DNA of 64,000 bases, from contig JABABU010000031.1 of NCBI GenBank assembly GCA_014238065.1, positions 1-64,000 on the forward strand, read 5' to 3'. This document shows positions 42,809 through 46,230 of the stretch, piece after piece. This DNA comes from Actinomycetota bacterium. Its GTDB lineage: Bacteria; Actinomycetota; Acidimicrobiia; Acidimicrobiales; Poriferisodalaceae. The notes beneath the pieces are model-generated. The model did not search any database. It was not told the origin of the DNA and saw nothing but the letters and a program-made list of their open reading frames with translations. The number at the start of each line of letters is the position of its first letter. Position 1 is the stretch's first letter. A program made the translations under genes and the position numbers.

Positions 42809-43324
42809 GTGAGCACGCACGATCGTGAGTTTGGCCGCTATCTCGAAGACTTCGACATCGGCGATGTGTACAGGCATTGGCCTGGCAAGACGATCACCGA
42901 GGCAGACGACCATCTGTTCTGCATGATCACGATGAATCATCATCCATTGCACACGAACCAGTGGTTTGCCCAGAACGAGACGGTCCACGGTAAGAACGTC
43001 GTTGTCGGCAACCTCGTGTACTCGCTCGTTCTCGGGATGAGCGTCCCCGACGTCAGCGGTGCCGCCATCGCCAACCTCGAGGTCGAAGCGCTGACGCACA
43101 AGAAGCCGACGTTTCACGGTGACACGATCTACGCCGCGTCCAAGGTGATCGACAAGAAGGAGTCGTCCTCCCGACCCGACCGTGGCATCGTGACCATCGA
43201 GACCCGTGCCGTCAACCAGCGCGAAGAAGAGGTCTGCTACTACCGGCGCAAGGTCATGGTCTGGAAGCGAGACGCGGCACCCGCGAGGGCTTTTCCATAC
43301 TCCGACGACCTTTTCGAGGACTGA
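42809..43324 (+). CDS. MaoC-like hydratase, candidate mesaconyl-CoA hydratase
   Basis: 171 residues from GTG 42809, preceded by GAGGAG; the open frame extends to 42731 but lacks a ribosome site. Single hot-dog domain with the hydratase motif EADDHLFCMITMNHHPLHTN (catalytic Asp and His, residues 30-50), then VVVGNLVYSLVLGMSVPDVSG and DTIYAASKVIDKKESSSRPDRGIV. This subfamily occurs in actinobacterial ethylmalonyl-CoA gene clusters, where it hydrates mesaconyl-C1-CoA to methylmalyl-CoA. With the nearby dehydrogenase this role is likely, but a general enoyl-CoA hydratase is possible. MutY follows after 10 bases. Confidence 0.82.
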   Translation: MSTHDREFGRYLEDFDIGDVYRHWPGKTITEADDHLFCMITMNHHPLHTNQWFAQNETVHGKNVVVGNLVYSLVLGMSVPDVSGAAIANLEVEALTHKKPTFHGDTIYAASKVIDKKESSSRPDRGIVTIETRAVNQREEEVCYYRRKVMVWKRDAAPARAFPYSDDLFED

Positions 43325-43334
43325 CGTCCGGCTG

Positions 43335-44219
43335 ATGCTCTCGTCCGAATCGATCGACTCCCTGCTCGAATGGGGTCGGGCGGCGCGGCGTGACCTGCCA
43401 TGGAGAAGGACGCGTGACCCCTGGCTCGTCCTTGTCTCCGAGGTGATGTTGCAACAGACCCAGGTCGATCGAGTCGTCGATCGTTATCTGCGGTTCACCG
43501 AGAGGTGGCCGGCGCCACGAGATCTCGCGGCCGAGGATCTCGCAACGGTTCTGCGCGAGTGGCAGGGGCTCGGCTACCCGCGGCGCGCCAGGAACCTGCA
43601 CCTGGCGGCAGTGCAGATGGTGGCCCGTTTCGAAGGAGCGGTTCCCCACCGATATGACGACCTGTTGACGCTGCCAGGGATTGGCCCGTACACGGCAAGA
43701 GCGGTCCGAGTCTTTGCCTACGAGCAGCACGAGGCAGTGCTCGATACCAACGTGGGTAGATTGCTCGCCCGCTGGAACGGCTCGTCGCTCGCAGCCGAAG
43801 AGGCTCAACGGGCGGCTGACGCACTCGTTCCGTCCAGTCGGTCGTGGGAATGGGGCCAGACGCTGTTCGACTTCGCGTCGGCTGTGTGTGCGAAGAGACA
43901 TCCGGCTTGCGTCGAGTGCGTTCTCGCCGACGTCTGTCCGTCGTCAGAGCTCGCCGGCACGCAACGTGACCCTGCCGTCAACAGCGCTGCGGTGAGCCGT
44001 CGTCAGTCGCCATTCGCCGGATCTCATCGTGAAGCGAGGGGCGTGGTGCTGCACGTCGTGGGTGCTCGGTCGATCTCGGCGCGAGACGTAGCCGAGGTCG
44101 CTGCTGCTGAACTCGGTTCGGACGAGACGCGCGTGAATACGGCGCTAGAGAGTCTCGTGGCTGACGGACTCATCGAGCTGGTCGATGGTCAGGTGCGGCT
44201 TCCCGCTAGCCGGCGATGA
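43335..44219 (+). CDS. mutY: A/G-specific adenine glycosylase MutY
   Basis: 294 residues from ATG 43335; upstream reading overlaps MaoC. HhH-GPD core: LVSEVMLQQTQVDRV (catalytic Glu near 36), LTLPGIGPYTARAV (hairpin, about 117) and VLDTNVGR (catalytic Asp, about 138). The [4Fe-4S] loop has C-x6-C-x2-C-x5-C (CAKRHPACVECVLADVC, 190-206). It excises adenine opposite 8-oxoguanine. The usual C-terminal Nudix-like domain, which recognises 8-oxoG, is missing; instead about 65 residues look like a winged helix (ISARDVAEVAAAELGSDETRVNTALESL). The 3' end overlaps the selenoprotein gene by 14 bases, in convergent orientation. Confidence 0.92.
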   Translation: MLSSESIDSLLEWGRAARRDLPWRRTRDPWLVLVSEVMLQQTQVDRVVDRYLRFTERWPAPRDLAAEDLATVLREWQGLGYPRRARNLHLAAVQMVARFEGAVPHRYDDLLTLPGIGPYTARAVRVFAYEQHEAVLDTNVGRLLARWNGSSLAAEEAQRAADALVPSSRSWEWGQTLFDFASAVCAKRHPACVECVLADVCPSSELAGTQRDPAVNSAAVSRRQSPFAGSHREARGVVLHVVGARSISARDVAEVAAAELGSDETRVNTALESLVADGLIELVDGQVRLPASRR

Positions 44220-44721
44220 TCTCTGTCAGCAGACGCTCGACGGTCGCGTCGGCTATCGCGATCATCTCCTGATCGGTCCGGTCCTGGATCGGATGTTCGA
44301 CGTAGACCGCAGCCGGGTCGGCGCCGAGTGCTCGTGCCTGGACCTCTGCGCCGCCGACGAACTGTGTCGTGGCGACAAAGACTCCGGGAATGCCACGGCT
44401 CTCGAGCTCAACGATGTCGTGCACACTGCACGACGTGCAGCTGCCTCAATCGGCGAGAGCTTCGATGACGACGTCGCAGGTCGTCGAGATCTCGTGGCGT
44501 AGATCGACGGGCGCCGGTTTCGAGAACGTTGGCTTCTTGAACCGTTCGACCTTGGCGCCGATCTGTTCGAGGCGGATTTGGAGGTGGTCCAGGAACACGT
44601 CGCCGCGCGGTTTTGAAATGTCGAGAAGACCAACGGTGAGCCCATCGAGGCTTGTCGGGCGCTCGAGTCGCTGCCAGTCCGAAGGCTTGCGTTCGCCAGT
44701 TGGGTCGAGAACTGTCGTCAT
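44206..44721 (-). CDS. UGSC family selenoprotein with in-frame UGA (Sec92)
   Basis: Two minus-strand frames (44745-44449 and 44445-44206) lie in exactly the same register and are separated by a single TGA at 44446-44448. Read through as selenocysteine they give a 171-residue protein from ATG 44721 (GAAGGGGG 5 bases upstream) to TGA 44206. Around the codon the chain reads CDVVIEALAD-U-G-S-C-T-S-C-S-V-H-D, the defining motif of the UGSC (seleno)protein family. The UGA is at codon 92, and sequence after it is as protein-like as before it. A SECIS-like hairpin follows (44416-44434). The molecular function of the family is unknown; U-G-S-C plus a further Cys98 indicates a redox centre. It is 51 bases behind the Trx-domain gene, so they form an operon. 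Confidence 0.93.
44416..44434 (-). promoter_or_regulatory. Candidate bacterial SECIS hairpin for Sec insertion
   Basis: Counting the U of UGA as 1 on the minus-strand mRNA, bases 15-22 (GUCGUGCA) pair perfectly with bases 26-33 (UGCACGAC), leaving the apical loop GUG at 23-25. Bacterial SECIS elements such as that of fdhF have a stem just after the UGA with essential loop residues G23 and U24; the same positions are met here. The loop is small, but opening A-U at its base enlarges it to five. An alternative 6-bp hairpin (9-14 with 18-23) competes. Confidence 0.82.
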
Positions 44722-44772
44722 GTGTTCCCCCTTCGCTTCCTGCAAGGGTAACTCTGCGGGCGGGTCAAGACC

Positions 44773-46230
44773 TTATGGCCGGATCGGGACCGTGGTCTTC
44801 TGACTGCCCATCTCGCCACTCACCCAACCAGGGAGCAGCATGCTGAAGAGCCCGGCGCCGCTGCCTGCGTGGGCGATCATCAGACCACCCGGCTGAACCT
44901 TCGGCACATTCTCGGCTTCGGCCATGAAAGCCGGAATACCCTCGGTGATTCCACCCGCGCCCCGAACGAGTTCAGACCCTGGTCGCTCCGTCAGCTGAAC
45001 GATGCGTTCGATCAACTGTTCTTTCGACCATCCAGCATCGCGGAATCGGGATGCGTGTTCGGGTCCTAGAACCAGCATGGCGTCGAAGCCGAGCACCGAC
45101 TTGGAGTTGCCCATTCCGAGGAGACCAGCCGCGAGCGAGCGACAGAGCGACTCGGGTTCGCGCGACAACTGGTCGGTGATCAGTGTTGTTCCGCAGGTGG
45201 CAAAGGCCGTGACGGCGTCCTCGCCTGCGACACCGCCGAGGTCGGCGTTGAGTGGACCCCACGGAGATCCTTCCTCGTCCTCAGCGAAACAGAAGCCGAG
45301 TTTGCCCGGCTGTCCGTGTGTGGCCCGATCGACCTCGCCTGGCCTCCCTCCGCCGACATTGCGAATCACCAGCTGAAGGGCCCGACCGATGGTGCTGTTG
45401 GCCCGGTTTCCCTGCCCCATGGCGTTGTGGGACCAGTTCATACCGATGCGTTTGCGAATCTCGCCGTTCACGACGATGACCGGACCCGCCGGCATCGTCG
45501 TCGCCAGCAAACCGTGCATGTTGAACGTTTCGTTGCACACTGCCTCGACGGCGGCGAGCACAACGGGGAGATACTCGGGTTTGCATCCTGCCATCACTGC
45601 GTTGATGGCTACCTTCTCGACGGTGCAGTCCACGAGGTCAGGCGGTGCGACTACGACGATCTCCGAGGGTGACCGCGTCGTCCCGTTGAGCATGGCTAAA
45701 ACTCTGGCCTCCGTGGGAGGAACGACGGGTAACCCGTCTGTCCAACCTCGCTGAAACATCGAGTCGAACTCGTCTTCCTGCGCTGCGAATACGATCCTGC
45801 GAGAAGAGATCTCCGAACCGCTGAACTTGACCATGAGGTCGTTCGCCAGATTCGGATCGACCGACAGGGACCCGCACCCGGGGCGCCACTCGGGGAGGCC
45901 GCCGCCAAGGGCTTCGAGTCCGGTGAATGGTTCCCATTGTTCGCGACTCCACCCGACGATCCGTTCGACCTCCGCCCCGTTCTCGACGCGGATCAGCGTG
46001 GGAACAGTCTCGATGTCGTGGTGCCAAGAAACAGAGAGCTCTGTGTCGTCGATGCGTTGGTTCACAGCTTCCGGGAACGCCGGATCATCCTGCGTGTAGG
46101 TGGTGAGACCGGTTCTGGCCTCGATGTCGGCCAGGACATCACCCACGAGTTCGCAGGTCGGGCAGTCGCGTTTCACGAATGCCACCAAGCCATCGGGAAG
46201 TGCTGGTTTCGTCATCGGTGGAGCCGCCAT
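44773..46230 (-). CDS. Thioredoxin-like domain fused to large uncharacterised domain, selenoprotein partner
   Basis: 485 residues; ATG 46215 (residue 6) is an alternative start. Residues 6-105 form a thioredoxin-like domain with CPTC (VKRDCPTCELVGDVL, about 23-26) and a cis-Pro-like IETVPTLIRVENG. Residues 120-485 are an uncharacterised domain with GWTDGLPVVPPTEARV, several conserved Cys/Gly patches (DCTVEKVAINAVMAGCKPEYLPVVLAAVEAVCNE), NGEIRKRIGMNWSHNAMGQGNRAN and CFAEDEEGSPWGPL. I recognise the latter as a type found next to UGSC genes, without known activity. No signal peptide. It is the upstream gene of the operon, and may supply electrons via CPTC to the Sec centre (inference). Confidence 0.8.
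   Translation of the reverse strand: MAAPPMTKPALPDGLVAFVKRDCPTCELVGDVLADIEARTGLTTYTQDDPAFPEAVNQRIDDTELSVSWHHDIETVPTLIRVENGAEVERIVGWSREQWEPFTGLEALGGGLPEWRPGCGSLSVDPNLANDLMVKFSGSEISSRRIVFAAQEDEFDSMFQRGWTDGLPVVPPTEARVLAMLNGTTRSPSEIVVVAPPDLVDCTVEKVAINAVMAGCKPEYLPVVLAAVEAVCNETFNMHGLLATTMPAGPVIVVNGEIRKRIGMNWSHNAMGQGNRANSTIGRALQLVIRNVGGGRPGEVDRATHGQPGKLGFCFAEDEEGSPWGPLNADLGGVAGEDAVTAFATCGTTLITDQLSREPESLCRSLAAGLLGMGNSKSVLGFDAMLVLGPEHASRFRDAGWSKEQLIERIVQLTERPGSELVRGAGGITEGIPAFMAEAENVPKVQPGGLMIAHAGSGAGLFSMLLPGWVSGEMGSQKTTVPIRP

Follow-up and report, generated by a model that had tools for sequence, protein, structure and literature searches.

Selenoproteins of the UGSC family were already among the most abundant in an ocean survey of 2008, in which 255 sequences were recorded (PMC2398784). 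Passages of that survey also proposed a likely thioredoxin-like fold for UGSC and noted its fusion to a domain called 'Unknown_1'. Nevertheless, a 2026 review still places UGSC among the selenoprotein families with largely uncharacterized roles (PMC13188914). The same review gives the motif of the selenoenzyme GrdB as UxxCxxC. Here, we describe a UGSC locus of an actinomycetotal genome and compare it with these systems.

The window, that is the whole 64,000-nucleotide stretch of DNA analysed, belongs to contig JABABU010000031.1 of an assembly from the Poriferisodalaceae (GCA_014238065.1; 3.94 Mb, 94.65% complete). Its UGSC-family gene lies on the minus strand (44206..44721) and runs in a single register from the ATG at 44721 to a TAG stop at 44206-44208. 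The sole interruption is a TGA at 44446-44448, with 91 codons on its 5' side and 79 residues on its 3' side. A purine run resembling a Shine-Dalgarno sequence, AAGGGGGA, precedes the ATG (44726..44733, minus strand). The preliminary description had joined two minus-strand frames across this one TGA, had read the TGA as the U of U-G-S-C and had predicted that routine annotation would yield two fragments or a pseudogene. Our analysis bears out all three points: the register is continuous, the motif reads in full U-G-S-C-T-S-C, with a predicted selenocysteine as residue 92 where homologues have Cys or TGA, and the plain list of open reading frames splits the gene into pieces of 99 and 72 amino acids. 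When searched against the UGSC family, the joined 171-residue product reaches 148.4 bits with NCBIfam NF041046 (UGSC_fam; curated cut-off 125) and 145.7 bits with Pfam PF24696 (cut-off 25, E 2e-42). The match is not a chance one, since the joined product clears the curated NF041046 cut-off whereas its halves, at 57.7 and 51.9 bits, both fall short of it. U or C heads the G-S-C motif in aligned homologues, and by its sequence the window protein is an additional member of a family already known by 2008. An HhH-GPD DNA glycosylase gene (MutY-like in our reading) adjoins the UGSC gene at 43206-44219 on the plus strand, and homologues of it were seen near UGSC in six related loci.

Directly upstream of the UGSC gene and in the same direction, we found a gene for a partner protein of 485 amino acids (44773..46230, minus strand), which combines a thioredoxin-like N-terminus bearing a CPTC motif with an unnamed C-terminal domain. 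The thioredoxin-like domain extends approximately over 45916..46215 (minus strand), corresponding to residues 1-100 of a 480-residue form of the protein (P0122). The partner adjoins UGSC on the same strand in all 75 loci examined, and in one case (P0083) its end continues into UGSC within one frame. The thioredoxin domain is not universal, being absent from 31 of 70 partners when sought with a regular expression. The partner of UGSC shows no resemblance to GrdE (P 0.59), and it may be the same protein as the 'Unknown_1' domain mentioned in the passages of PMC2398784.

A structure model of UGSC, built from 51 sequences with Cys substituted for Sec, was obtained with a pLDDT of 93.9. It consists of beta-alpha units in series, with residue 92 placed after the third strand and before a helix spanning residues 93-108. 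PDB matches of the model include receiver, flavodoxin and lumazine-synthase chains; none of the 50 matches listed per search is a thioredoxin chain, an absence still compatible with a thioredoxin fold. On the basis of this model, the UGSC domain would be flavodoxin/receiver-like rather than thioredoxin-like. The 2008 proposal would instead give UGSC a thioredoxin-like fold and make it an ordinary oxidoreductase for thiol-disulfide or peroxide chemistry, and not a reductase of the GrdB/PrdB type. We consider this unlikely: the UxxC motif and the thioredoxin domain of the partner agree with it, as does the fold called likely in PMC2398784, but both the confident model with its matches to other folds and the register of the selenocysteine, which fits GrdB and PrdB-like profiles, argue against it.

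The latter comparison was made with two profiles, one built from 8 GrdB C-termini and the other from 16 UPxC proteins of the PrdB-like type, which match each other with a probability of 99.5. In alignments of UGSC with both profiles, Sec falls on Sec and a downstream G-I-P stretch on G-I-P. The hhalign score was 32.4 with GrdB (probability 39) and 34.6 with the PrdB-like proteins (probability 43), as compared with maxima of 20.7 and 21.0, respectively, over 200 column shuffles each; overall, 0 of 400 shuffles did as well as the true alignments. The UGSC product itself (P0001) has no match to Pfam PF07355 (GRDB) at E values up to 10. In the same genome, the C-terminal part of PF07355 has five matches, on contigs 23, 52, 16, 22 and 11. 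The one that was read (L106, contig 23) is PrdB-like with a U-P-V-C motif, so that this genome likely holds further selenoproteins. We found no link between UGSC and GrdB in the abstracts and the passages of PMC2398784, PMC13188914, PMC9312934 and PMC1088965 that we consulted.

The TGA is almost certainly decoded as selenocysteine, which would make the UGSC product a selenoprotein. This prediction is drawn from the homologues, from a conserved RNA hairpin and from the complete set of selenium genes that this genome carries. Database searches with the UGSC product found 3579 relatives, the best 120 of which were listed and examined. Among these 120, 107 are short (<=130 amino acids, mostly 94-103), and those that carry a name are mostly labelled 'hypothetical protein'. 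All 107, known as protein sequences only, end in LAD, the three residues that stand just before the TGA in the window. They look as if truncated at the TGA; such genes escape gene callers that end a frame at this codon. The other 13 relatives are longer, and 10 of them carry the motif, with C at the site in seven, W in two and R in one; homologues with Cys or TGA over the UGA, which the preliminary description had asked for, do therefore exist. Of 396 genomes sampled across the phylum, 28 contain a UGSC match, and 38 of the 47 matched places hold exactly one TGA. In the nine TGA-free places, all four that were read have Cys, the other five being partial matches or unread. The TGA is the codon before G-x-C in 34 of 34 TGA genes read. 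The genome studied here has four UGSC places with one TGA in each, the three further genes being located on contigs 10, 29 and 30. A scan requiring Cys returned 37 named loci, including ones from Methylobacterium, Elioraea, Bradyrhizobium, Bordetella, Cyclobacteriaceae and Nonomuraea; Methylobacterium brachythecii and Elioraea rosea are among the named carriers of the Cys type.

The termination of 107 short relatives at this point could also mean that the TGA is a true stop, giving a 91-residue N-terminal protein and a separate downstream frame. This is very improbable, as Cys-type homologues read straight through the site, the downstream part by itself retains the family profile (51.9 bits), and a hairpin of the SECIS type follows the TGA. 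It is even harder to regard the TGA as a nonsense mutation in a decaying pseudogene, despite the in-frame stop and the two short frames of a routine list, because exactly one TGA occurs in all four copies of this genome and in 38 of 47 matched places of the phylum sample, it precedes G-x-C in every one of the 34 TGA genes, and codon periodicity is kept downstream of it in the 15 genes compared.

The predicted bacterial SECIS hairpin (44416..44434, minus strand) has the form GUCGUGC-AGUGU-GCACGAC, that is a 7-bp stem and a loop AGUGU. It starts at base 15, counting from the T of the TGA, its loop is separated from the TGA by 18 nt, and its 19 nt fold with an energy of -10.9 kcal/mol. The bacterial SECIS model, as given in PMC13188914, calls for a loop of 3-9 nt, a stem of 4-16 bp, a G within the first two loop positions, a spacing of 16-37 nt and a minimum free energy of at most -7.5; the window hairpin agrees with every one of these constraints. 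In 34 TGA genes (33 distinct), 91.8% of the hairpin pair cells are standard pairs, and four of the seven pairs are altered on both sides. In shuffles that ignore the relatedness of the genes, 0 of 500 matched the pairing or the covariation score, and 2 of 500 matched the number of two-sided pairs. When the hairpin was slid along the alignment, at most 51.5% of cells were paired. The covariation score at +2 (0.168) came close to that of the true position (0.179), and four pairs with two-sided changes were also seen at -3 and +3, but these three offsets had only 35-50% of cells paired. Of 29 TGA genes, 26 form at least six of the seven pairs, versus 14 of the 41 with Cys (p 3e-6), the remaining three TGA genes lacking the hairpin at that offset, whereas a structure z-score hardly distinguishes Sec from Cys genes (p 0.07). 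AGT is the loop codon of 28 of the 34 TGA genes and of none of the 41 Cys genes. The innermost C-G pair is replaced by G-C in five genes, with the third Cys codon, TGC, changed to a Trp codon, TGG; in the same five genes, the codon two past TGG has its third base changed to C. Between 15 chosen TGA genes, third-position differences amount to 0.55 upstream of the TGA, 0.18 in the ten codons after it and 0.55 beyond, while first and second positions differ by 0.17-0.21, 0.04-0.06 and 0.22-0.28, respectively. These position-wise differences suggest that the RNA is constrained after the TGA and that the downstream part is translated.

The selenium pathway that the preliminary description had anticipated in this organism was indeed found, as selA, selB, selD and tRNA-Sec (selC), the gene set taken as the mark of bacterial selenoprotein synthesis, are all present. 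SelB scores 271.8 bits (cut-off 242.25) and selA 381.8 bits; the two genes adjoin on contig 10, which also carries the tRNA-Sec gene. The latter reaches 67.2 bits (Rfam gathering 47) and is called tRNA-SeC with anticodon tca by ARAGORN; as 5 of 14 control genomes also clear the Rfam cut-off, this score proves little by itself. SelD (365.8 bits) is located on contig 53 (L158, G000:C53:84000-93000) and has an in-frame TGA of its own in a U-G-C-K motif; judging from this sequence, it is likely a selenoprotein itself. With this gene set, and with C in 7 of the 10 longer motif-bearing relatives and in all four TGA-free phylum loci read, there is next to no room for insertion of another amino acid, be it Trp through a code change or a product of near-cognate read-through, even though W in two and R in one of these relatives are each one base from TGA, since these entries sit on contigs of 930-1002 bases and possibly reflect sequence errors.

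The preliminary description had called selenoproteins rare in actinomycetes, but across the phylum 236 of the 396 genomes sampled have a SelA match, 226 of them over the cut-off. Ignoring relatedness, 22 of the 23 genomes that carry a TGA-type UGSC have SelA, versus 214 of 373 others (Fisher p 1e-4); within the order of the window's organism, so do 12 of 12 TGA-type genomes versus 1 of 16 without UGSC (Fisher p 4e-7). The sole exception among the 23 is a genome 94% complete (G036), where the lack of a SelA match reflects either an assembly gap or a loss. Among the genomes with Cys as their only good UGSC match, two (G102, G150) have no SelA and one (G294) has it. In three genomes (L022, L134 and L135), UGSC and a selB-like gene were seen in one stretch, within about 13 kb; the selB-like genes were assigned by cluster, with confirmation by the selB profile for L022.

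The neighbours of UGSC may give some clues to its function. We compared 37 Cys-type loci with 38 loci from this genome and the phylum sample, in raw counts of one-query matches, with families represented by single sequences, no background rate and recurrent related strains: thioredoxin reductase is found within 5 kb of UGSC in 11 of 37 and 1 of 38 loci, respectively, the TctC receptor in 14 and 0, CoA-transferase III in 9 and 4, BKACE in 5 and 0, a dicarboxylate symporter in 5 and 0, and acyl-CoA dehydrogenase in 5 and 7. The thioredoxin-reductase matches of the Cys type stem from few lineages, and one of them (L074) was confirmed with TIGR01292 over its cut-off. These families point to the catabolism of small carboxylates. 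A gene of the TauD family directly adjoins UGSC copy B and shares its strand. Near copy D, a sulfoacetaldehyde dehydrogenase gene (720 bits, cut-off 600) is encoded on the strand opposite to the partner gene, together with DMSP-demethylase-like and succinate-CoA-ligase-like genes that score below their cut-offs. These neighbours (L025:998-4655) lie 3 to 6.5 kb from the partner gene and within 7 kb of UGSC, suggesting organosulfur catabolism around copy D.

On sequence evidence, we somewhat favour the idea that UGSC and the partner encoded upstream form a two-part reductase recharged by thioredoxin. Sec92 would stand after a beta strand, at the start of a helix, and its flavodoxin/receiver-like domain would be a relative of the one that carries Sec in GrdB and PrdB. 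By analogy with the chemistry of these two enzymes, as set out in the parts of PMC13188914 consulted, the selenolate of Sec92 could reductively cleave a bond in a small carboxylate substrate, held by the C-terminal domain of the partner; such a GrdB/PrdB-type chemistry is put forward tentatively. A selenenyl-sulfide would then form between Sec92 and Cys95, or Cys98 where present. Its reduction would fall to the partner's thioredoxin domain with the CPTC motif or, for partners devoid of this domain, to a separate thioredoxin. Thioredoxin would in turn be refilled via thioredoxin reductase and NADPH. It is conceivable, if somewhat speculative, that UGSC and its partner represent unrecognised and widespread two-gene reductases of the Stickland type outside clostridia. 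Their GrdB/PrdB-like domain would carry either Sec or Cys, thioredoxin would be built in or supplied as a separate protein, and different copies would serve different small carboxylates. Organosulfur compounds may be among these, in view of the copy beside the TauD-family gene and the copy within about 5 kb of the sulfoacetaldehyde dehydrogenase gene. With a fixed partner, a fold, kin among selenoenzymes whose chemistry is known, and named carriers of the Cys type, the function of UGSC becomes testable.

The partner gene, the three other UGSC copies and the link to GrdB/PrdB go beyond the preliminary description. As compared with thioredoxin, the corresponding domain of the window partner is fused to some 380 extra residues that belong to no Pfam or NCBIfam family. 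In the profile alignment, Sec of UGSC coincides with that of the C-terminal part of GrdB (PF07355), the G-I-P stretch comes after it in both, and the Cys located six residues past Sec in GrdB has its counterpart in Cys98. The GrdB sequences examined read U-G-T-G-T-R-C, with no Cys at +3, unlike the UxxCxxC quoted above from PMC13188914. UGSC differs from GrdB in that it has no counterpart of the N-terminal half, goes unmatched by the Pfam model, stands beside an unrelated partner and occurs in a genome where, at 94.65% completeness, PF09338 (GrdE) has no match. With the PrdB-like UPxC proteins, such as L106 of the same genome, UGSC shares a Sec residue in a U-x-x-C motif that a hydrophobic stretch precedes and G-I-P follows; they differ in having U-P-x-C where UGSC has U-G-x-C, and identity in aligned columns is 20%. 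From the UGSC family itself (NF041046, PF24696), as far as it is described in the passages of PMC2398784, the window protein does not differ in kind, having the same U-G-S-C motif and Cys homologues. What our analysis adds to this known family is the strict two-gene pairing, the modelled fold and the probable distant link to GrdB and PrdB.
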